Assembly (NCBI GenBank): GCA_902766095.1
Contig: CACXCN010000008.1
Coordinates: 1 to 59,986, forward strand
DNA length: 59,986 bases
Direction: 5' to 3'
From: an uncultured Selenomonas sp.
GTDB lineage: Bacteria > Bacillota > Negativicutes > Selenomonadales > Selenomonadaceae
Positions 49,933 to 59,986 of the stretch are shown here, piece by piece. Within the stretch, counting starts at the first letter, position 1, and each line of letters opens with the position of its first letter. The notes beneath the pieces are model-generated. The model searched no databases. It was not told the DNA's origin and saw nothing but the letters and a program-made list of their open reading frames with translations. A program made the translations under genes and the position numbers.

Positions 49933-51423
49933 TCACTGAGCATCGAGCTGCTCGCTGTACGTCTGTACGCCATCGGTCTGGCGAACTCCGTTTATAACGA
50001 CGTTCTGATAGGTCAGGTTCTTTACATTCTCCAGGACCGCGCCGCCCTGCACCCCTCTGATATCCATGTCCTTGAAGGTCACGTTGGTAATCGGCGAGTC
50101 GGCAAAACCGCGGAGATAGAACGGATACTGGGCATCGATCGTGCCACCGGGCTTCGTCCGGAAGCCGTCGATCGTCACATTGCGCAGCGTCGGCAGATGC
50201 TGGCCGTTGCGCCCCTCCTCATAGAAGAAGTTGCAATGCACGACCGCCAGCCGTGATTTGTTGACGACGGAATTGCGCACATAGACATTCTCCATGAGGC
50301 CGCCCCGCTTGGCGTTCGTCTTGAATCTTATCGGATAGTCGAGGTTCGGACTATCGAAGTTGTTGTCCTCCGCGAAAATATTCCGCGCTCCACCCGATAT
50401 CTCGCTGCCGATCGTGACGCCGCCATGTCCGTTGCTGAACTCATTCCTACGGATCACTACATTCTCGGTGGGGACGTTGATGCGCCGCCCATCCTGATTG
50501 CGGCCGGATTTGATGGCTATGCAGTCATCTCCAGTCTGGAAGTAACAATCCTCGATCAGTACGTTCTTGCACGACTCCGGGTCAACACCGTCGTTATTGT
50601 AGAGGTTGGTTTCGACGTGGATCCCCTTCACCAGCACATTCTCGCACAGAACAGGATTGACTTCCCAGAACGGAGAATTCGCGATATGCACATCTTTCAC
50701 CAGCACATTGCGCGAGTGATAGAACTGAATGAACGGCGGACGCAGCGTCGAGAGCCGGTCATCGAAGATTCTCTTCTCCGGTTCGGTCTCGGCCACATTA
50801 TGAGCGAACAGACGCTCACGCTGCACCTGCTGGTCAGCTTCACCGAAATAACCGAATTTCCACGGCATCCAGTTGAACTCATCAGCACAGCCATTCAGCG
50901 TACCAGTTCCTGTCACGGCTATATCTTCCGCACCATTCGCATAGATGAACGGTGAGAAATTCATTAGTTCTACGCCCTCCCAGCGGCTGAACCGCACGGG
51001 ATAGTATTTATTCGACTTGTTGCGCATGAAGCGCAGCTCGGCTTTATCATTCAGATGAAGCTCGACGCCCGACTTCAGCTCCAGGGCTCCGGTATAGTAG
51101 ACGCCCTCCGGCACGACGACCACGCCGCCGCCCGCTGCCGCAGCATCATCGATGGCAGCCTGGATGGCCCGGCCCGAGAACGGAACGGTATGCGTGTTGC
51201 GGATGAGCTTCTTAGCCAGATAAGCTTTATCTGCCTTCATCTCCGTCTTCGTGCCCTTGTACGGACCATCCGGATGCGTGAAGTACTCTTCTTCCTCTAT
51301 GGAAACCAGGCCGGCGTACTTATCGCTCGTTATATCGAAGCTGCTTGTACCATGCTGCGTATCGACAGCCTCGCATTTCTCTACGATCTCATCGTACAGC
51401 TTCTGATTCCAAGTAAACTCCAT
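49933..51423 (-). CDS. Glycoside hydrolase family 28 (polygalacturonase-like, intracellular)
   Basis: About 496 residues of beta-helix. All four GH28 motifs are visible: NNDGVDPESC, TGDDCIAIKSGRN (catalytic Asp pair), NGHGGVTIGSE and YPIRFKTN (RxK). There is no signal peptide, so it likely acts on imported oligogalacturonides as an exo-enzyme. ATG 51423 is eight bases from GGAGG; a GTG at 51438 overlaps the site. First gene of the operon. No LacI/GntR-type regulator gene is adjacent. Confidence 0.92.
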   Translation of the reverse strand: MEFTWNQKLYDEIVEKCEAVDTQHGTSSFDITSDKYAGLVSIEEEEYFTHPDGPYKGTKTEMKADKAYLAKKLIRNTHTVPFSGRAIQAAIDDAAAAGGGVVVVPEGVYYTGALELKSGVELHLNDKAELRFMRNKSNKYYPVRFSRWEGVELMNFSPFIYANGAEDIAVTGTGTLNGCADEFNWMPWKFGYFGEADQQVQRERLFAHNVAETEPEKRIFDDRLSTLRPPFIQFYHSRNVLVKDVHIANSPFWEVNPVLCENVLVKGIHVETNLYNNDGVDPESCKNVLIEDCYFQTGDDCIAIKSGRNQDGRRINVPTENVVIRRNEFSNGHGGVTIGSEISGGARNIFAEDNNFDSPNLDYPIRFKTNAKRGGLMENVYVRNSVVNKSRLAVVHCNFFYEEGRNGQHLPTLRNVTIDGFRTKPGGTIDAQYPFYLRGFADSPITNVTFKDMDIRGVQGGAVLENVKNLTYQNVVINGVRQTDGVQTYSEQLDAQ

Positions 51424-51483
51424 TTTATCGGCCTCCACTTTTGTCTCTCTTGTTTTGCTATATATAGTGTATCATTTTCACTC

Positions 51484-51512
51484 ATTCTATCGTAGAGAAT
51501 ATTTTTAGCCAA
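51484..51512 (-). promoter_or_regulatory. Promoter of the pectin-oligomer operon
   Basis: Minus strand: -35 TTGGCT (51512-51507), 17-base spacer, -10 TAGAAT (51489-51484). A palindrome CTATATATAG at 51458-51467 lies downstream of it and could be an operator. Confidence 0.55.
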
Positions 51513-51530
51513 ATCTTTAACTTTTATAGC

Positions 51531-51570
51531 AAAAAAAAAGTACCAGACTATGAATTGTCATAATCTGGTA
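51531..51570 (-). terminator. Terminator of the ftsZ-like/tcdA/gpsA-like operon
   Basis: Minus strand: TACCAGATTATGA (51570-51558) and TCATAGTCTGGTA (51553-51541) pair with one G:T, followed by CTTTTTTTTT. Confidence 0.85.
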
Positions 51571-51626
51571 ACGCAGAACCCTATAGTTATTAATTTATTA
51601 TATTAAAAAATAAAGGTCATCTATCG

Positions 51627-52622
51627 TCATGCCAGCTCCGCCTTGCGGGGACGCAGGAAAAGCTGAGTCAGCTGCTGGCGCGGGTCGGCCTTGTCATAGA
51701 TGATACGGTAGACCGTCCGGCAGATCGGCAAATCCACCGAGTACTTCTCACCGAGGCGGACGAGCGCCTCTACGGTGCCGACGCCCTCCGCCAGTTTCGT
51801 AAACGGGCGCTTGCGGATGAGATCCTCACCGAAGCGGCGGTTATTGCTGTACTCCGAGAACAGCGTCGCCTGATAGTCACCGAGATGCGACAGCCCGTAT
51901 ACCGTCATCTTGTCGCCGCCCATGGCCTCGACGAGGCGCGACAGCTCGCGCGTGCCGCGGGCCATCAGCGCCCCCTTGAGGCTCGTATAGCCGAAGCCGT
52001 CCAGCATGCCGGCTGCGAGACCGATGACATTCTTCGCGGCGGCACCGATCTCCGTGCCGAGCAGATCCTCCCCATAGTAGAACCGGATCAGCGGGCTCGC
52101 GAAGAGCGCCGCCGTGCGTTTCGTCAGCTCCATATCCGGCGAAGCGATGACCATGCAGTTCGGGATGCCCTGCACGAAATCCTGTACATGACCCGGCCCG
52201 ACCCATACAGCCACCGGCTGGTCCGCACCGAGCTCCTCCCGGACGACCGTCGTCAGACGCTTGCCCGTGGACTGCTCGAGCCCCTTCATGCAGAGCACCA
52301 GCGTCTTACCCGTGAGGGCTGCTCCGGCGATATCCCGCAGCTGACGGCAGAAGCCGCGCAGCTGCTGGGACGAAATAGAGATGACGACCGTGTCAGACCA
52401 GCGCAGAGCCGCGTCGAGGTCGTCCGTCAGACGGACCGAGGACGGCAGCTCGAGATAGGCGTTGCGGTGCTCCTGCTGCAGCTCCTGCAGATGACGGGAG
52501 CCCGGCCGCCCCCAGAGCAGGGTCTCATGGCCGATATGGTCCGCGTACCAGGCATGGAAAGTGCCCCAGCGGCCGCAGCCGAGTACCATCACATGCTGGC
52601 GCGGTGCGGTAGTCTCGCTCAT
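51627..52622 (-). CDS. Glycerol-3-phosphate dehydrogenase-like protein (GpsA family, divergent)
   Basis: 331 residues. Rossmann start VMVLGCGRWGTFHAWYADHIGHETLLWGR (GxGxWG kept, rest unusual), and the catalytic lysine in GTEIGAAAKNVIGLAAGMLDGFG. The following substrate-contact motifs differ from GpsA: GDN is absent (YTSLKGALMARG) and the usual SRNxxxG is SNNRRFG. It could be a true but diverged sn-glycerol-3-phosphate dehydrogenase or act on another hydroxy acid. It overlaps tcdA by ATGA and ends the operon with a terminator. Confidence 0.75.
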   Translation of the reverse strand: MSETTAPRQHVMVLGCGRWGTFHAWYADHIGHETLLWGRPGSRHLQELQQEHRNAYLELPSSVRLTDDLDAALRWSDTVVISISSQQLRGFCRQLRDIAGAALTGKTLVLCMKGLEQSTGKRLTTVVREELGADQPVAVWVGPGHVQDFVQGIPNCMVIASPDMELTKRTAALFASPLIRFYYGEDLLGTEIGAAAKNVIGLAAGMLDGFGYTSLKGALMARGTRELSRLVEAMGGDKMTVYGLSHLGDYQATLFSEYSNNRRFGEDLIRKRPFTKLAEGVGTVEALVRLGEKYSVDLPICRTVYRIIYDKADPRQQLTQLFLRPRKAELA

Positions 52623-53389
52623 GCTGATACCTCCGTTTTCACTCCGGTCAGGTCACGCACGATCTCGCCCGCCATGATGAGGCCGGCCACCGACGGCACG
52701 AACGATATGCTGCCCGGCACAGCCCGCCGGCGGTCGCAGTTGCGCGCCGAGCCCGGCGGACAGATGCAGTTCTTGCCACAGCCGCTCTGACGCACCTCGC
52801 GCGGACGCTCCCGCGAGTAGACGACCTTGAGCTTCTTGACATGATGCTCCTTGAGCTTCTTGCGCATGACCCGCGCGATCGGATCGACGCAGGTCTTATA
52901 GATATCCGTGACCTCGAACAGCGACGGGTCGAGCTTGTTGCCGGCGCCCATGCTCGATATGATCGGTATGTGGCGCTTCTGGCACTCGAGGACGAGGTCG
53001 ATCTTGGCCGTCACCGTATCGACGGCATCGGCCACATAATCATAGCTCCCACGGAAGAATTCATCTGCTTTATCGGGCAGATAAAAATCATTGATGCATT
53101 CGACCTCGGCCTTTGGATTGATTGCCAGCACACGCTGCTTCATCGTCTCCGTCTTCGGCTGCCCCACCGTCTCTGTCGTCGCATGGATCTGGCGATTGAT
53201 ATTCGTCAGGCATATGAGATCGTTATCGATGAGCACGAGATGGCCGACGCCGGCCCGCGCGAGCCCCTCCACTACGAACGAACCCACACCGCCGATACCG
53301 AACACAGCCACCGTAGCTGTCGCCAGACGAGAAAGCCCCTGCTCACCAAGCAGGAGCTCCGTCCGAGAGAATCTGCCTAACCCGCTCAC
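52619..53389 (-). CDS. tcdA: tRNA threonylcarbamoyladenosine dehydratase (TcdA/CsdL)
   Basis: 256 residues, E1/ThiF-like fold. N-terminal RFSRTELLLGEQGLSRLATATVAVFGIGGVGSFVVEGLARAGVGHLVLIDND, ATP-binding NINRQIHA, and DAVDTVTAKIDLVLEC are canonical, with CPPGSARNC cysteines before the membrane-associated C-terminus. It cyclises t6A37 of tRNA to ct6A. GTG 53389 forms a GTGA overlap with the ftsZ-like stop; the downstream gene overlaps too. Link to its partners is not obvious. Confidence 0.93.
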   Translation of the reverse strand: MSGLGRFSRTELLLGEQGLSRLATATVAVFGIGGVGSFVVEGLARAGVGHLVLIDNDLICLTNINRQIHATTETVGQPKTETMKQRVLAINPKAEVECINDFYLPDKADEFFRGSYDYVADAVDTVTAKIDLVLECQKRHIPIISSMGAGNKLDPSLFEVTDIYKTCVDPIARVMRKKLKEHHVKKLKVVYSRERPREVRQSGCGKNCICPPGSARNCDRRRAVPGSISFVPSVAGLIMAGEIVRDLTGVKTEVSA

Positions 53390-54699
53390 TGATCCTTATC
53401 CTTTCTTTCAGACATATCCGGAATGATGCGGAATGCCGGCCGGGCCGCCGGCGTCGAGTGCCGGTCGGCGGCTGCATCATGGCCAGTCCCCGCTTCATGA
53501 CTATGGTTCATGAACGAAGGCATCTCGACGGTGAATGTCCTGGCCCCGCCCGAGGCCGGGGCTGCTGCCGCTGGAGCCGGCGCTGGCTGAGCTGCTGGAG
53601 CCGACTGAGCCGGCTGCGCTGCGCTCCGGACCTGAGGCTTCGCCGGCTGCGGCTGGACCGGAGCCGCGGGCCGCTGCACCCGGGCGGTTGCCGGCCGGAC
53701 CACCGGACGCGGCGCAGCCGCACCTACTCCGGCATCCGACTCGAAATCCGTAGCGATGATCGTCGCATCCGCACTGCCCTTCATATCATCATCAATGACG
53801 ACGCCGAATATGATGTTGACCTCTTCGCTCGTCACCTGCGTGATATACTCACTGACCTCGCCGACATCCTCCATCGTCAGCGAATCGTCCGTCGTGATGT
53901 TCAGGATCACGCCGCGCGCGCCATTGATCTGCCGGTCGGTCAACTGGCTTCTCGCGGCTTCCTTCACGGCCTCGAGCGCCGAGCGGTCGCTGTGGCCGAT
54001 GCCAAGCAGGGCATCCGACTCCTCGCTCTGGCGGAATATCGTAGTGATATCGGCGAAGTCGACATTGATGACGCCCGTCGTCAGTATGAGCCCTGTCAGG
54101 CCGCGGATTGCCTGCATGAGCACGCCATCAGCCACCTTCAGCGTCTCGACCATGCTCAGCCGCTGATTGCCCGGCAGCTTGAGCAGATTGTCATTCTCGA
54201 CCGCTATGAAAGCATCCATCTGCTGCTTCATATAGGAAATGCCGGTCAGTGCGACCTTGCGCTTGCGCGTCCCCTCGAATTTGAACGGGATCGTCGTCAC
54301 GCCGACGGAAAGGACACCGGCTTGATGTGCGAGCTCGGCCACGATCGGGGCTGCGCCCGTACCCGTGCCACCGCCCATAGCTGCCGTTATGAATACGAGA
54401 TCGACACCGTTCAGTGCATCCGCGATGGCACTCTTCGCCGCATTGGCCGCCTGCTCGCCGATCGCCGGCTTGTTGCCCGTACCGAGGCCATGCGTGAGCT
54501 GCTCGCCGATCTGTATCGTCTCGATGCCGACATCGCGCAGTTCCTTCAGAGCCGCGGCATCCGTATTGATACCCACGAGACCGATATCGGGATCGGCATG
54601 CTCATGCATGCGCAGCAGCACCTTGTTGCCGCCGCCGCCGACACCGAAAACCTTTATCTTTATCTTGGGCTTCTTTATCATCTCGTCCTGTGTTGCCAT
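53386..54699 (-). CDS. Divergent FtsZ-family GTPase
   Basis: 437 residues. The FtsZ core is clear: IKVFGVGGGGNKVLL (17-29), NTDAAAL (45-51), HGLGTGNKPAIG (70-81), tubulin signature GGGTGTG (109-115), T7 catalytic loop NVDFAD (212-217), and a C-terminal TIIATDFES strand (313-321). A Pro/Ala/Gln-rich linker runs 328-385, then TFTVEMPSFMNHSH (388-401) resembles the FtsZ C-terminal peptide, and a further acidic/basic tail of about 35 residues follows. Differences from canonical FtsZ: GGGGNNAV is GGGGNKVL, PNDRLL is ENDNLL, and the MGIG..GE.RA helix is LGIGHSDRSALEAV. It is not in a division gene cluster; it is followed by tcdA. ATG 54699 is nine bases from GGGAGG. It is probably a second FtsZ rather than the only one, but that cannot be checked here. 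Confidence 0.85.
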   Translation of the reverse strand: MATQDEMIKKPKIKIKVFGVGGGGNKVLLRMHEHADPDIGLVGINTDAAALKELRDVGIETIQIGEQLTHGLGTGNKPAIGEQAANAAKSAIADALNGVDLVFITAAMGGGTGTGAAPIVAELAHQAGVLSVGVTTIPFKFEGTRKRKVALTGISYMKQQMDAFIAVENDNLLKLPGNQRLSMVETLKVADGVLMQAIRGLTGLILTTGVINVDFADITTIFRQSEESDALLGIGHSDRSALEAVKEAARSQLTDRQINGARGVILNITTDDSLTMEDVGEVSEYITQVTSEEVNIIFGVVIDDDMKGSADATIIATDFESDAGVGAAAPRPVVRPATARVQRPAAPVQPQPAKPQVRSAAQPAQSAPAAQPAPAPAAAAPASGGARTFTVEMPSFMNHSHEAGTGHDAAADRHSTPAARPAFRIIPDMSERKDKDQ

Positions 54700-54800
54700 G
54701 GGGCACGTCCTCCCGCTATATTTACTCATTCGTTGCCGTCAGTTCATGATCCTGGCGCGCTGAAACAGCTGCTGACCCTGTCTCTCTCCGTGCTTTCAGA

Positions 54801-54832
54801 AAAGAAAAAGCGGGGCATTTGCTCGCCCCGCT
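54801..54832 (-). terminator. Terminator between the short leader frame and the ftsZ-like gene
   Basis: Minus strand: AGCGGGGC (54832-54825) pairs with GCCCCGCT (54816-54809) and is followed by TTTTCTTT. It stands about 105 bases before the ftsZ-like ATG, so transcripts from 55019 must read through it to express the operon unless there is another promoter. Confidence 0.75.
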
Positions 54833-54863
54833 CTCTCCCCCTCTCAGTTGCTTTTCCACAAGA

Positions 54864-54923
54864 TCAGCTGAAAAGAAACACCGCTAAACAGGCCAAAAGG
54901 ATCTTCAGGCTATCCAGCTTCAC
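54864..54923 (-). CDS. Candidate 19-residue hydrophobic peptide (small membrane protein or leader peptide)
   Basis: GTG 54923 with GAGGG ten bases upstream opens a 19-codon frame, MKLDSLKILLACLAVFLFS, ending TGA at 54864. It has two lysines and one aspartate in the first seven residues, then a hydrophobic run of about 13, like a single-span small membrane peptide or a signal-like leader. A consensus promoter lies 70 bases upstream and a terminator 30 bases downstream, giving a transcript of about 185 bases. No homology is claimed. Confidence 0.4.
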   Translation of the reverse strand: MKLDSLKILLACLAVFLFS

Positions 54924-54990
54924 GCTAACACTTCCCTCTGACAACAAAAAAGCTGGTGCTAGACGTATACAACGCCATTCACTAGCTATG

Positions 54991-55019
54991 ATTATACACT
55001 CATAGCCAATTTTTTTCAA
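54991..55019 (-). promoter_or_regulatory. Strong promoter upstream of the short leader frame
   Basis: Minus strand: -35 TTGAAA (55019-55014), 17-base spacer, -10 TATAAT (54996-54991). It directs transcription toward the leader and the ftsZ-like operon. Confidence 0.8.
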
Positions 55020-55046
55020 CCGATTTATTTAGGCAAAACGATCGGA

Positions 55047-56468
55047 TCAGACAATGCCCGTCAGCATGTAGAACGCTATGCAGGCGAAAGGTACCAGGAA
55101 CTTCAGTCCCATGACGACCGCGATATCGAAATAGCTCTCGCGATGCGTCAGGCCGCAGATCGCCAGCAGCGTGACCAGAGCGCCGCAATGCGGCACCGGG
55201 TCGATACCGACCGAGGCGATAGCAACGATGCGGTGCAGGACCTCGAGCGGGATGCCGGCCGCCTGAGACATCGCCATCCACTGGTCACCGAGCATCGACA
55301 GCGCGATGGTCAGACCGCCCGAAGCCGAGCCGGTGATGCCTGCCATGATATTCGTCGTGATGACCGCCGACATGAGCGGTCCGAACGAATCCGCGATCCC
55401 GATCAGGGCATCCGTGACCGGCTGGAACCCCGGCATGCTCGTCACGACGCAGCCGAAGGCATAGCCCGAGGCCACGTTGAGCACCGCCGTGCCCGAGGTC
55501 AGGGCCGCGTAATTGATCGGTGCCAGGAATCCATCCATGACGATGAAACGCTTGCGTGCGATGAAGGCCGCAACGAACGAACTGATGATGAGGGCCACGC
55601 TGATCGACCAGACGGCCGACACCTTGCCGACCTGCGTCGCGAGCAGCGACAGATGCAGCGGCTGCAGAGCCTCCAGGCTGGAATCACTCCAATGGAAGCC
55701 CCAGCTCCAATGAAACGGATTCGACAGGATCATATTCAGCACGACGACCATGAGCAGCGGCAGCAGTGCCCAGTACCAAGGGATATGAATCTTCGGCTCG
55801 CGATGACGCTTGCCGGTCTCCAGGATATGCGTACCATAGCCCTCGCCCTTGGCCTTGAGGACCTTGGCGCGATGGCCGACCCAGCCCCAGCCGATGAGCA
55901 CGAACAGTAGCGAGGCAAAGAGACCGATGCCCGGTGCTGCCCAGGAGCTGGTCTGGAAATACGACGAAGGGATGATGTTCTGGATCTGCGGCGTGCCTGG
56001 CAGCGAAACCATGGCGAACGAGAATATGCCCACCCACAGCGTAGCCGGGAGCAACCGCTTCGGTATATCGGCCTTCTTGAACACGACGCGGCCGAACGGA
56101 TACATGACGAAAGCCACCACGAATACGGACAGACCGCCATAGGTCAGGGCGCCACATCCCAGCAGCACAGCCAGTATTGCCCGCTTTTCCCCAAGCACTT
56201 CGACAATCTTGCCGGCCACCGACGAGGCCAGACCGCCTTTCTCCATGAGCCGGGCGAATACCGCACCGAACAGGAAAACCGGATAGTAGTTCTTCACATA
56301 CTCTGCCGCCCGTGTCATATAGAGCTCAGAGTATACCGGCAGCACATCGAACATGCTGCCCAATGCTGCCAACCCCGCAAAGAACGGTGCTACCAGGATG
56401 ATGGACCAGCCTCGATAGGCAAAATACATCAGACCAATCAGGGCTAAGCCTATACAAACCGCTTCCAT
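55047..56468 (-). CDS. GntP-family permease
   Basis: 473 residues with about twelve to fourteen membrane spans. The start MEAVCIGLALIGLMYFAYRGWSIILVAPFFAGLAA, YFQTSSWAAPGIGLFASLL, GSASGGLTIALSML and GIDPVPHCGALVTLLAICGL match the gluconate:proton (GntP) group, whose members import gluconate or other organic acids with protons. The substrate is not determined. GGGAG is 12 bases from the ATG, rather far. It has its own promoter with a nearby inverted repeat. Confidence 0.9.
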   Translation of the reverse strand: MEAVCIGLALIGLMYFAYRGWSIILVAPFFAGLAALGSMFDVLPVYSELYMTRAAEYVKNYYPVFLFGAVFARLMEKGGLASSVAGKIVEVLGEKRAILAVLLGCGALTYGGLSVFVVAFVMYPFGRVVFKKADIPKRLLPATLWVGIFSFAMVSLPGTPQIQNIIPSSYFQTSSWAAPGIGLFASLLFVLIGWGWVGHRAKVLKAKGEGYGTHILETGKRHREPKIHIPWYWALLPLLMVVVLNMILSNPFHWSWGFHWSDSSLEALQPLHLSLLATQVGKVSAVWSISVALIISSFVAAFIARKRFIVMDGFLAPINYAALTSGTAVLNVASGYAFGCVVTSMPGFQPVTDALIGIADSFGPLMSAVITTNIMAGITGSASGGLTIALSMLGDQWMAMSQAAGIPLEVLHRIVAIASVGIDPVPHCGALVTLLAICGLTHRESYFDIAVVMGLKFLVPFACIAFYMLTGIV

Positions 56469-56492
56469 TAAAACAAAAGACTCCCTTCGCCT

Positions 56493-56517
56493 GCAGTATG
56501 AATTATCACTATACTGC
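56493..56517. promoter_or_regulatory. Inverted repeat (possible operator) upstream of the GntP-family gene
   Basis: GCAGTAT (56493-56499) and ATACTGC (56511-56517) flank an 11-base spacer between the promoter and the gene start. Confidence 0.5.
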
Positions 56518-56561
56518 GCACCACATACTATATGATATTTTTATACAAACATACGAGATTT

Positions 56562-56590
56562 ATATTAACATTTCACCCCAGCATTGTCAA
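56562..56590 (-). promoter_or_regulatory. Promoter of the GntP-family gene
   Basis: Minus strand: -35 TTGACA (56590-56585), 17-base spacer, -10 TAATAT (56567-56562). Confidence 0.8.
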
Positions 56591-56603
56591 ATGACTCACA
56601 CGC

Positions 56604-56646
56604 AAAAAAGCACCTGATTCACCTGCTGTACAGGCGAATCAGGTGC
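56604..56646 (-). terminator. Terminator of the DMT transporter gene
   Basis: Minus strand: GCACCTGATTCGCCT (56646-56632) and AGGTGAATCAGGTGC (56624-56610) pair with one mismatch, followed by TTTTTT. Confidence 0.9.
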
Positions 56647-56659
56647 ACATACGGCAAGA

Positions 56660-57580
56660 TCACGCTTGCGCGTCGCCATCCCCCGCAGCCCGCTCTGGGC
56701 GCGGCTTCAGGAACAATCCCAGCTGGGTCACAATACAGCCGACGAACATCAGTACACATCCTGTAATCTGGCTCAGACTCATCATCTCGCCCAAGAGCAG
56801 CCAGCTCGCGAGAGCGCCGAATATCGACTCGCAGCTCATGAGCACGGCAGCCGGAGCCGGATCGGCATAGCGCTGCCCGACGATCTGCAGCGTGAATGCG
56901 ATGCCACCGGAGAAGATACCGCTGAACAATATCGGGAAGCAGGCCTCGCCGATGCCGGCCAGCGTCGGCTCCTCGAAGGCCACCATGAACGCGCCCCCTA
57001 CGATCATGCAGACGAATACCTGAGCCACTGACAGCTCGATATTATCGACATCCTGAGCGAATCGGTCCACGATCAATATCTGGCCGGCCCAGAAGAACGT
57101 ACTGATGAACAGCAGCACATCACCGAAATTCAGCGTCACCGCACCATGGATGGACAGCATATACATGCCAACCACGGCGATGAAAGCCCCCACCCAGTTC
57201 CAGATATGCAGGCGCCGTCCCAGCAGCACCGCTCCGATCGGGACGATGACCATATAGAGCGCCGTGATAAAGGCCGCCTTGCCTGCCGTCGTATAAAGCA
57301 TCGAATACTGCTGCAGCAGACTGGCGATGATCATCGAGCTGCCCGCCAGAATCCCGGCCCGCCAGCCCGGCTTGTACTGGCCGATGCTCTTCGCGATACG
57401 GCGTTGCGGCTGGCCGATCTGCCAGATCGCCAGCAGGAACAGCAGCGACAGCAGGAATCTGGCCCAGGTGAACGTGAACGGCCCCACATGATCCATGCCC
57501 TGCATCTGGGCCACGAAGGTAACGCCCCATATAAAGGCCGCCCCCAGCAACATGAGATTTCCCTTCAGTCCTTTGCTCAT
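56660..57580 (-). CDS. DMT-superfamily (EamA) transporter
   Basis: 306 residues, ten spans arranged as two EamA repeats. First repeat GNLMLLGAAFIWGVTFVAQMQGMDHVGPFTFTWARFLLSLLFLLAIW; second GDVLLFISTFFWAGQILIVDRFAQDVDNIELSVAQVFVCMI, ending with ESIFGALASWLLLGEMMSLSQITGCVLMFVGCIVTQL. EamA proteins export metabolites such as amino acids; the substrate is unknown. GAGGGG lies 11 bases before the ATG. Confidence 0.92.
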   Translation of the reverse strand: MSKGLKGNLMLLGAAFIWGVTFVAQMQGMDHVGPFTFTWARFLLSLLFLLAIWQIGQPQRRIAKSIGQYKPGWRAGILAGSSMIIASLLQQYSMLYTTAGKAAFITALYMVIVPIGAVLLGRRLHIWNWVGAFIAVVGMYMLSIHGAVTLNFGDVLLFISTFFWAGQILIVDRFAQDVDNIELSVAQVFVCMIVGGAFMVAFEEPTLAGIGEACFPILFSGIFSGGIAFTLQIVGQRYADPAPAAVLMSCESIFGALASWLLLGEMMSLSQITGCVLMFVGCIVTQLGLFLKPRPERAAGDGDAQA

Positions 57581-57617
57581 AAACCACTTCGCCCCTCATA
57601 TTTATTTCCATAATTAT

Positions 57618-57662
57618 ACCCCCAGACGGAGCGGCCTGTCTTTCGCCGTCCGGTCCGGGGGC
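57618..57662. other. Inverted repeat between the DMT and the unknown membrane protein genes
   Basis: ACCCCCAGAC and GTCCGGGGGC form a long imperfect stem with an inner hairpin. There is no T-tract after it on the minus strand, so it is at best a weak terminator for the gene at 57713-58330. Confidence 0.4.
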
Positions 57663-57712
57663 ATCACGTCAGCAGGAATGCTGACCATCCATCGATCCGT
57701 ATATCACTCGGC

Positions 57713-58330
57713 TCAACGATACTCGAGGTCACGCGTACCGCGGCGAACCTCCTCAGACACCGGCAGCGACGCCTCATAGCGCCGCACGATGACGGTCGTC
57801 GTCATGACACCGGCCAGCAGTATGATGGCTGCCAGCAGCAGGACACGCGCTGCTGACTCATCATCGCTGTCGCCATCGCCGCCGAACAGACCGCCCAGCC
57901 CCTCCGTGACCGTGTCAAGCGCTGGACCAAAGCTCTGCACCGCATTGTACGTATTATAGGCCTGCGCAAACGTATTCCAGCCGGCCACGCCCAGATTCAT
58001 GAGCGACTTATCACGCGCAAAGCTGATCCAAGACTGGATCGTGATGATGATGCCCGTCCCGATCGCCGGCACGATGATCATCAGATAAATCAGACTCGAC
58101 AGCACACCGATCATAGAAACCGGCAGATAGCCAACCGAGAGCGCGATATAGCCAATGACTATCGCATAGACAAAAGTAAACCCGATCGCCGACTGTATCG
58201 CCCCGCACCAAGCCAGCAGCCGGATCCACCCGCCAACCGCCTTGGACTCCGCCCAGACCTTGCCGACACTGCGCGCGTTCATGAAACTGATAACCAGATT
58301 CAGAATCATTATACCGATAAGCATTACCAT
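57713..58330 (-). CDS. Unknown multi-span membrane protein
   Basis: 205 residues. Four to five spans: VMLIGIMILNLVISFM, FTFVYAIVIGYIALSVGYL, SMIGVLSSLIYLMIIVPAIGTGIIITI, and after a soluble stretch with GLGGLFGGDGDSDDESAAR (Gly/Asp-rich) a C-terminal span VLLLAAIILLAGVMTTTVIV with a basic tail. No family is recognised. ATG 58330 is preferred, six bases from GGAG; ATG 58342 is four codons upstream. It is the last chromosomal gene before the IS110-type element. Confidence 0.65.
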   Translation of the reverse strand: MVMLIGIMILNLVISFMNARSVGKVWAESKAVGGWIRLLAWCGAIQSAIGFTFVYAIVIGYIALSVGYLPVSMIGVLSSLIYLMIIVPAIGTGIIITIQSWISFARDKSLMNLGVAGWNTFAQAYNTYNAVQSFGPALDTVTEGLGGLFGGDGDSDDESAARVLLLAAIILLAGVMTTTVIVRRYEASLPVSEEVRRGTRDLEYR

Positions 58331-58439
58331 AAAAAACTCCATTCCGCCGCTGTCGCTGGCGGCACAAATAGGAATGAAAACAAAGGTGCGACACTCCTTT
58401 ATATGTTACAATTACCATAGAGAGGGAGATATCCTACAA

Positions 58440-58635
58440 AGCACGGGGGGAGGAGTTGCGGATTGTCAACTCTGTTAGACTCAAGTCAGTATAAAAAACA
58501 GTGCATGCCCAGCCTCTCAAGCACAAATAAGTGGATCTATGAGACCGTACGCTAACCATTGGCATTGACTTATCGTTTTTTGCTTGGCATGGGCAGGCAA
58601 TGTCTCCCTTCCACAATGAAAGGAGGATTGTTGAC
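58440..58635 (+). ncRNA. Candidate IS110 bridge RNA region (left non-coding end of the element)
   Basis: The non-coding stretch before the transposase can fold: an outer stem pairs TGCCCAGCC...CAAGCA (58506-58523) with TGCTTGGCATGGGCA (58581-58595), and an inner stem pairs ATAAGT (58527-58532) with ACTTAT (58568-58573) around a 35-base loop. IS110-group elements encode their two-loop bridge RNA upstream of the transposase. The exact ends and the target- and donor-binding loops are not resolved. Confidence 0.5.
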
Positions 58636-59901
58636 ATGAAAATCGTTTACCCCGTTTGTTGTGGCATCGATGTACACAAAAGCTTTCTCGTTGCCACCAT
58701 CGTGTCCGTGACTAAGCTAAGAACTCTCTCGTATAAGAAAGAACGTTTCTCCACCTTTAACAAAGACCTGCTGCGACTTAAGCTTTGGCTCATTGAAAAT
58801 AACTGCTATGATGTATGTATGGAATCTACAGGTAAATACTGGATTCCTGTCCTTAACGTGCTGGAACCTGATTTGCACGTCGTCATCGTCAACCCCAAAT
58901 GGGTCAAAGCCGTCAAAGGCAACAAGGACGATGTAAAAGATTCCAAATGGATCGGCGAGCTTTTCTGTTTCGGCCTCGTCAAGAGCAGTTTCATCCCTAA
59001 CAGGGAGATACGCATCCTTCGTGAATTTACGCGTTACCGCTATAAACTCGTCACGATGCGCTCCAGCGAGAAGAATCGCTTCCAGAATGGCTTTACCGTT
59101 TGCAATATCGCCTTGGATTCCGTAGTCTCTGACATGTTCGGTAAATCTGCCAGCAGAATCACTGATTATCTTCTCACGGACGAGAAACCGGATGCCCAGC
59201 ACTGCACGACTTTGCTCCATCGCTCTCTGAAAAAGAAAGCTGTCGCTGTCGTTGAATCCATTAAGGGATTTCAGCTCACAGAGGAGCAGAAGTTTCGCAT
59301 GCTGCAAGTACGCAACCATATGGAGTACCTGCAAACAGCCATTGATTCCCTTGATGACAAGCTGGATTCCCTGGTGAAGCCTTACGCTGCTGCTATCAGG
59401 CTCTTGTGCACGATCCCCGGGATGAAACGCGACTCAGCCATTACGGTCATCTCCGAAATTGGCACGGATATGTCGCAGTTCGACTCCTCGAAGAGACTTT
59501 GCAGCTGGGCTGGACTGACGCCTGGCAACAACCAATCGGCTGGCAAGAAAAAATCCGTCAGGATTTCCCGCGCCGGAGTCTACATCAAACCAATGCTCGT
59601 CCAGGTTGCTCATGCAGCCGTAAAATGCACCAGCCAGCCCTACTACAAAATCAAGTATGAAAACATCTCGCGCCGTCGGGGGAAGAAACGAGCCATCATC
59701 GCCATCGCTCGGATGATATTGACTGCTATCTACCACATGTTCCAAACGGGAGAAATGTTCAACCCCAGTGACCTTCGGCAAATTGATATGCCGGAAGAGA
59801 TCAAAGAGAAACGGACACAGCGGACCATCAGCAAAGCGATTGAACTTCTGAAGCAACAAGGGATCTTATCTAGTACCTTTGTTGCACCATCACACACATA
59901 G
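58636..59901 (+). CDS. IS110-family transposase (DEDD recombinase)
   Basis: 421 residues. N-terminal RuvC-like DEDD domain: CGIDVHKSFLVATIV, CMESTGKYWIPVLNVLE, NPKWVKAVKGNKDDVKDSKWIGELFCFG. C-terminal Transposase_20 domain: IPGMKRDSAITVISEIGTDMSQFDSSKRLCSWAGLTPGNNQSAGKKKSVRISRAG, with candidate catalytic serines in NNQSAGKK. These recombinases use a bridge RNA to choose donor and target DNA. ATG 58636 (MKIVYPVCCG) is nine bases after AAAGGAGG. The reading frame is intact, so the element may be active. Confidence 0.95.
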   Translation: MKIVYPVCCGIDVHKSFLVATIVSVTKLRTLSYKKERFSTFNKDLLRLKLWLIENNCYDVCMESTGKYWIPVLNVLEPDLHVVIVNPKWVKAVKGNKDDVKDSKWIGELFCFGLVKSSFIPNREIRILREFTRYRYKLVTMRSSEKNRFQNGFTVCNIALDSVVSDMFGKSASRITDYLLTDEKPDAQHCTTLLHRSLKKKAVAVVESIKGFQLTEEQKFRMLQVRNHMEYLQTAIDSLDDKLDSLVKPYAAAIRLLCTIPGMKRDSAITVISEIGTDMSQFDSSKRLCSWAGLTPGNNQSAGKKKSVRISRAGVYIKPMLVQVAHAAVKCTSQPYYKIKYENISRRRGKKRAIIAIARMILTAIYHMFQTGEMFNPSDLRQIDMPEEIKEKRTQRTISKAIELLKQQGILSSTFVAPSHT

Positions 59902-59986
59902 GTCAAAAAGTCAATTTTTTACCGGCTGAGGTCTATTAAGTTCGGCCATTTTTAGACGCTATCCAAAATCACAAATTTTCACGCTA

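Follow-up and report, generated by a model that had tools for sequence, protein, structure and literature searches.

The stretch of DNA analysed here (the window; 59,986 nucleotides) is contig C8 (CACXCN010000008.1) of a 94-contig, 2.34 Mb genome of an uncultured Selenomonas sp., and it ends, at 59986, with a mobile element of the IS110 family that spans about 58334 to 59986. This locus raises the question whether the non-coding DNA upstream of the transposase encodes an RNA that selects the insertion site, and which site that RNA addresses. An initial annotation, made from the sequence alone, had proposed a guide-bearing bridge RNA in the segment 58440-58635. We consider it very probable that an intact IS110-group element encodes its bridge RNA in this segment and that this RNA steers insertion to translation start sites. 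Computation shows the ends of the element, a conserved RNA structure, matches to target and donor, and empty sites in relatives; transcription, the ends of the RNA, binding, the exact core, recombination and preserved translation are inferred from these.

Further copies in the source genome, whose search the initial annotation had recommended, supplied both ends of the element. The last 86-87 bases of the window recur in contigs C85, C83 and C24, which diverge at 59987, and positions 58328-58412 recur in contig C62, which differs upstream of 58328. Sharing and divergence at these contig ends amount to at least three right junctions and at least two left junctions, and they place the whole segment 58440-58635 inside the element; the left boundary is thus neither within nor downstream of it. 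The transposase frame (58636-59901) is intact, as had been claimed, and is open from an in-frame ATG at 58600. It matches NF033542, "IS110 family RNA-guided transposase", with an E-value of 7.4e-66 and contains the Pfam domains PF01548 and PF02371. Its best and only match among solved structures is IS621, at a low similarity (E 3e-9). This alignment spans the later acidic positions and the serine region of the transposase but begins at residue 34, so that the first Asp of the DEDD motif lies outside it; GIDVHKS near the N-terminus is presumably the part of the motif that carries this residue.

Structure of the putative RNA upstream of the transposase

An alignment of 22 relatives, built without structure information, was used for a covariation test. 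A seven-helix structure is paired in 91.8% of the cells, and 19 of its 34 pairs have changed on both sides. Its covariation score is 0.393, compared with 0.186 for shuffled alignments (0 of 500 as good) and at most 0.120 for versions of the structure slid along the alignment. Because the structure was picked from an RNAalifold result and by eye, the slid control is biased in its favour, and the shuffles, which disregard relatedness, are the fairer test. Together with the loop matches described below, the structured segment supports the interpretation as a guide-bearing bridge RNA, which would be a conserved two-loop molecule at about 58420-58610. A search of Rfam within 50000-59986, at E-values up to 1, gave nothing overlapping it. 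A sub-threshold match to sR17 at 55557-55605 (24.1 bits against a gathering threshold of 36) is probably due to chance.

The proposed segment holds most of the RNA but starts about 20 bases late, missing the 5' strand of the closing helix (58424-58431). The two stems that had been drawn fared differently. The outer one (58506-58523 with 58581-58595) contains helix 4, which is paired in 97.2% of the cells and shows changes on both sides in six of eight pairs. The inner one (58527-58532 with 58568-58573) can form in the window but is paired in only 43.6% of the cells, below its own shuffles and without covariation, and was rejected as a conserved helix. The initial description also lacked the first internal loop (58441-58504), the start-codon target and the order of the guides. 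Its statement that the loops set the target and donor specificity agrees with the data in that one loop matches the target and the other the right end, in both cases against permuted pairings, but it had placed the guides in the second hairpin only.

Loop guides, junctions and translation start sites

The 3' side of the first loop, TATAAAAAAC, matches the element's own left junction, CATAAAAAAC, at nine of ten positions. Both left junctions in the source genome read CATAAAAAAC, and at the junction in the window its CAT is the start codon of a leftward gene. Of the four occurrences of this 10-mer in the source genome, two are the junctions; however, its last two bases belong to the element, and the fair figure is therefore that of the 8-mer CATAAAAA, which has 74 sites in the source genome, both recovered left junctions lying on such a site.

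The agreement between loop and junction was examined across the relatives. A search of genome contigs at protein level yielded 30 loci, relatives at E 1e-60 or better were found in 57 of 398 Bacillota genomes (including distant ones without this RNA), and phage records contained one distant match. DNA similarity identifies the left end in many relatives, and 41 of 61 loci entered the guide tests. Those dropped were a duplicate (L077, the same as L043), loci whose RNA motifs or left end were truncated or interrupted or could not be located (L050, L054, L057, L074, L075, L080, L081 and L087), loci with a loop but without a left junction (L089, L090 and L091), and more distant relatives without the motif (L093, L097-L101, L013 and L014). 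For eight copies of a 40%-identical relative (L013 and others) no borders could be set, the copies agreeing beyond the element or the delimitation stopping near the gene. Fetched fragments such as L048, L059, L065, L092 and L094-L096 stand outside the 61 loci. The left-end motifs were entered by hand from earlier outputs, and the junction positions were thus chosen by eye. Related copies (L102-L104, L040/L062) were collapsed to distinct guides only in the test of guide against junction; they are counted in the tallies of start codons, right flanks, core, the positions beyond the core, and CTCC.

Among the 41 elements, the guide matches its own left junction at 10 of 10 positions in 4, 9 of 10 in 30, 8 of 10 in 5 and 7 of 10 in 2 (L056 and L082). 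For the 33 distinct guides the mean match is 8.91 of 10 to the own junction and 6.20 to the junctions of other elements, a contrast reached in 0 of 100,000 permutations (best 7.12); the comparison of loop guides with insertion flanks suggested in the initial annotation therefore came out in its favour. The five variable positions between start codon and core give the same picture (4.91 of 5 own, 3.58 others; 0 of 100,000 permutations).

A start triplet stands at the same guide position in all 41 elements (37 ATG, 3 GTG and 1 TTG), unshifted in 40 and shifted by one base in L064. In 30 of 39 testable cases the triplet opens a frame, directed away from the element, of 60 or more codons without a stop; of nearby background CAT triplets, 300 of 1015 do so. 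On the right flank, CTCC, TCCT or CCTC occurs within 15 bases in 24 of 33 elements as against 11.4% of background windows further out; eight elements were left out of this test, the right end or flank being missing. A start triplet on the left and a Shine-Dalgarno complement on the right place the element in the interval from start codon to Shine-Dalgarno sequence, in antisense orientation to the gene, and from these signals the clade appears mostly to insert at translation start sites.

The host gene in the window has no Pfam or NCBIfam match, and the open reading frame listing extends its frame to an ATG at 58342 inside the element (58340-58342, minus strand). The second left junction of the source genome (contig C62, L006:83-1249) lies at the start codon of a gene assigned to the amidohydrolases by Pfam, which by our own reading is nagA-like. 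Genes named by Pfam at other junctions encode a dTDP-sugar epimerase, a short-chain dehydrogenase and a radical SAM protein. On Enterococcus faecalis plasmids the annotated gene is traC (annotation from a homologue), and in E. raffinosus it is an SDR gene.

The left end of the window element begins ACTCCATTCCGCC, which puts CTCC 6 bases from the host start codon. Across the set, 25 of 41 elements carry CTCC, read as GGAG by the gene, at a distance of 6-7 bases from the host start codon, and an ATG borne by the element stands in frame 12 bases upstream of that codon (9 bases between the codons) in 33 of 41. Such a re-supplied GGAG may spare the hit gene, whose translation either feature might preserve.

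The second loop carries the corresponding match to the donor. Its 3' side, ACGCTAA, matches the ACGCTA of the right end (TTTTCACGCTA). Two positions preceding CT are variable (types CG, CA, AG, AA, GA and TA); donor guide and right end agree exactly at both in 34 of 39 elements, as in 0 of 100,000 permutations; reduced to 11 distinct combinations, 27 of 100,000 permutations are as good. The misses are L055, L063 and L064, truncated copies without a real right end that were retained, and L037 and L085.

Nearly every element has a GG-rich 5' side in its first loop (GTGAGGTGAGT, for example), which is complementary to the right target. The best single case for this right target guide is L078 (genome G359, contig C45, 1182-1197 and 2822-2860). 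Its left guide matches CACGTGAAAC at 9 of 10 positions, and its 5' side, GCAAATGAAATTGT, pairs by eye with the top strand of the right flank, ACAATTTTGTTTGC, over 14 positions, 12 Watson-Crick and 2 G-U. The target of L078 belongs to a repeat, whose 16-base palindrome TGTTTCACGTGAAACA occurs at 76 places in the G359 genome with at most two mismatches (the listed places are exact), compared with one for a control, and in three inspected copies of the repeat the site is uninterrupted. Several of the places lie within one stretch of contig C27. We take the palindrome to resemble parS, and the 16-mer reportedly turns up in parS papers as well; 76 places would be unusual for parS.

Empty sites point to the position of the core. 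In E. faecalis plasmid LR962547.1 the traC site without the element reads CACTTTTACTTTCCTCC, whereas the occupied site reads CACTTTTA followed by TAATTC on the left and CAAGCTTA followed by CTTTCC on the right. A further empty site lies in front of another E. faecalis plasmid gene. Two further plasmid copies were compared with pTEF3 and a second plasmid, and here the left side has one T fewer than the empty site. For the SDR gene of E. raffinosus the empty site is CATTTATCTTCCC and the occupied one reads CATTTAT then ATAATC on the left and CAAACTT then CTTCCC on the right. The Selenomonas copy L058 could be compared with diverged homologues only; no empty site for the left flank of L036 was found in 22 Selenomonas-like genomes, where the same locus alone was recovered, and the flank of L107 matched only itself. 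These sites and the RNA alignment suggest a two-base core at guide positions 7-8. The left-side bases there are AA in 31, TA in 9 and AT in 1 of the 41 elements, and the guides give the same tallies; the core would usually be AA in the clade and TA in an E. faecalis-type subclade. In L042 and L078, which have a longer spacer, it may lie one base further. A CT core as in IS621, first suggested by left ends NCTCC and right ends CTA, is excluded for L104 by its empty site, since no CT stands at the junction of the left product. Agreement with the first two left-end bases after the core extends to guide positions 9-10 in 30 of 41 elements (0 of 100,000 permutations, related copies counted), and the empty sites differ from the guide at these positions. 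The coordinates in the window are collected in Table 1.

Table 1. Features of the IS110 element and its surroundings in the window.
Feature	Position	Strand	Basis or remark
Host gene at left junction	57713..58330	-	start codon CAT (58328-58330) abuts the element; 205 open codons leftward
Left target half CATAAA and putative two-base core AA (58334-58335)	58328..58335	+	common to the contig C62 junction; core from RNA alignment and empty sites of relatives
Left end (LE), begins ACTCCATTCCGCC	58336..58635	+	boundary from contig C62 and relatives
Extended -10-like TGTTACAAT (TGGTATAAT in several relatives), possible RNA promoter	58404..58412	+	alignments
Closing helix P1 (helix 1)	58424..58431 / 58601..58608	+	90.0% paired, 4/7 pairs changed on both sides
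Helix P2 (helix 2), 5' strand GCAC, closes target-binding loop	58441..58444 / 58501..58504	+	100% paired; 3/4 pairs never vary
5' side of target-binding loop, Shine-Dalgarno-like GGGGGAGGAGTTGC; putative top-strand (right target) guide	58446..58459	+	right-flank test, p 0.004; L078 pairing
Left target guide TATAAAAAAC, 3' side of target-binding loop	58490..58499	+	9/10 to own junction; 41-element test
Helix P4 (helix 4), contained in the outer stem first annotated	58507..58514 / 58586..58594	+	97.2% paired, 6/8 pairs changed on both sides
5' side of donor-binding loop CAAGCACAAATAAGTGG, near-invariant; putative right donor guide	58518..58534	+	conservation in alignments
Hairpin P5 (helix 6) between the two donor guides	58533..58546	+	88.5% paired, 2/4 pairs changed on both sides
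Left donor guide ACGCTAA, 3' side of donor-binding loop	58549..58555	+	matches the element's right end
Transposase ribosome-binding site GGAGG	58622..58626	+	sequence
IS110 transposase, 421 aa	58636..59901	+	frame, Pfam, NCBIfam; best solved relative IS621
Right end (RE), ends TTTTCACGCTA	59902..59986	+	three contigs diverge at 59987; last A probably first core base

Two side observations concern the elements themselves. A GC-rich inverted repeat, GCCGCTGTCGCTGGCGGC, lies at 58346-58363 near the left end and recurs as an imperfect hairpin, with changing letters, in many relatives. Some copies are decayed: the left end of L054 has an internal deletion, and the transposases of L055, L058, L063 and L064 are truncated or broken, the left junctions still being readable.

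Comparison with known systems

Like IS621, as described in passages of PMC11208160 and PMC11208158, the element has a short core, an RNA at its left end with separate loops for target and donor, and a transposase that is probably of the DEDD plus serine type. The position of the RNA is that of the IS110 group (PMC11208160, in part); in accordance with that group the longer non-coding end lies upstream of the transposase, a left end of about 300 bases compared with 85 for the right end. The RNA also seems to run two bases past the core and to match the incoming donor end, exactly in 30 of 41 elements, like the "handshake" guides of IS621 in the passages of PMC11208158. Other features differ. 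In IS621 the bottom-strand match stands on the 5' side of both loops (excerpts of PMC11208160 and PMC11208158), whereas here the 3' sides carry it; the core is AA or TA; and IS621 hits REP elements, whereas the present clade mostly hits start codons.

The order of guides, with the top-strand complement 5' of the bottom-strand match, is not the one of the IS110 group, in which the bottom-strand match comes first, but the one reported for seekRNAs of IS1111 elements such as ISEc11 (passages of PMC11187229). In IS1111 elements, however, the RNA is usually downstream of the transposase, a few members being reported with an upstream region, and the ends carry subterminal inverted repeats (same passages). 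None were detected here above shuffled right ends (8.81 of 12 own, 8.80 shuffled; 36 elements), and a pair seen by eye, GGCACAAAT and ATTTGNGCC, was rejected on the same ground. The combination of an IS110 position of the RNA, ends without subterminal inverted repeats and an IS1111 guide order may be unreported; a published example may exist, figures having been outside the search.

The title of Doran et al. 1997 reportedly states that IS900 "targets translation initiation signals". For this IS110-family element of Mycobacterium avium subsp. paratuberculosis the reported target is CATGNNNNNNTCTCCTT (PMC8141618, in part), so that start-site targeting in the family was already known. As in IS900, the target here consists of start codon, spacer and Shine-Dalgarno complement, with the insertion lying between the two signals and antisense. 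The passages of PMC8141618 that deal with IS900 mention no guide RNA. A literature search, with figures, supplements and most subscription papers outside its scope, found no account tying start-site targeting to a guide RNA.

Proposed mechanism and alternative explanations

In the mechanism we propose, the RNA would be transcribed from the left end and bind both DNA partners. The 3' side of the first loop (TATAAAAAAC) would pair, across start codon and spacer, with the gene-sense strand; the Shine-Dalgarno-like 5' side would pair with the other strand over the Shine-Dalgarno sequence of the gene. ACGCTAA on the 3' side of the second loop would pair with the right end of the element, and the 5' side presumably with the left end. 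The transposase would then insert a circular element by recombination at the two-base core, within the spacer that separates the Shine-Dalgarno sequence from the start codon and in antisense orientation to the gene. Left ends of the main clade begin NCTCC and would thereby supply a further GGAG some 6 bases ahead of the start codon, so that the hit gene may be spared.

Several observations weigh against this mechanism. Right target guides fit their own flank only slightly better than the flanks of other elements (6.36 matches compared with 5.94, p 0.004, 33 elements), in part because the 5' side hardly varies, and they do not keep a constant register relative to the core. In 9 of the 39 testable cases the left-junction frame closes before 60 codons, and the target of L078 is a palindromic repeat, not a gene start. 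The core assignment draws on few empty sites. The left and right flanks of the copies in the source genome could not be paired, so that their own empty site was not recovered, and the left flank of L102 lacks one T of the empty site. The folding energy of the single sequence does not exceed that of shuffles (z -0.33 for 58440-58635 and z -1.10 for 58420-58612), and the case for the RNA is made by covariation and guide matches. Scans for promoter-like and terminator-like sites in 58250-58700 were empty, which weakens the case for the -10-like TGTTACAAT. Both expression of the RNA and activity of the element are deduced from sequence.

The left-end position of the RNA, shared with the IS110 group (passages of PMC11208160), together with IS621 as the sole solved-structure match could mean that the matches on the 3' sides of the loops are secondary. 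This is very unlikely, since the left-junction copy stands on the 3' side in the 41 tested elements, the right-end copy stands on the 3' side of the second loop, and the 5' side of L078 pairs by eye with the right-flank top strand over its 14 positions. The segment also immediately precedes the transposase, with which it would be co-transcribed, as expected for a 5' leader controlling transposase translation, with the protein itself reading the Shine-Dalgarno/start-codon motif. A protein that recognises a fixed motif is not expected to leave bases between start codon and core that vary and track the RNA loop, as they do here (4.91 of 5 own, 3.58 others), and we regard the leader as scarcely credible.

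Finally, the target guide copies the strand opposite to the message; being antisense to the start-codon region of the hit gene, and of any other genes that share its spacer, it could pair with mRNA, and CATAAAAA is found at many places in the genome (74). This leads to the question whether host messages are a target of the RNA, in addition to its guiding role in recombination or in place of it. Such pairing would be short, and the match of the second loop to the right end and the fixed insertion position would have no role, making this explanation improbable to a high degree. We therefore retain the bridge RNA that guides insertion. Somewhat less firmly, we favour a third layout of bridge recombinases. 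It would combine a left-end RNA, loops mirrored relative to IS621, a target loop holding the near-universal address "start codon plus Shine-Dalgarno", and a left end that re-supplies the Shine-Dalgarno sequence so that insertion is tolerated. Re-programming between elements would involve only a few spacer bases; in L078 both guides would have been redirected to a dispersed palindromic repeat. IS900 may be explained by the same principle.

If this is true, the old observation that IS900 hits translation start signals would gain an explanation in terms of RNA. The order of the guides would not be fixed by the division into IS110 and IS1111, which bears on the arrangement of the strand-exchange complex. 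The system further suggests a way in which a mobile element could exploit a target found at thousands of genes and yet do little harm. Moreover, it would add an independent family of bridge recombinases with natural diversity, for which genome sequences directly reveal many pairs of guide and target.
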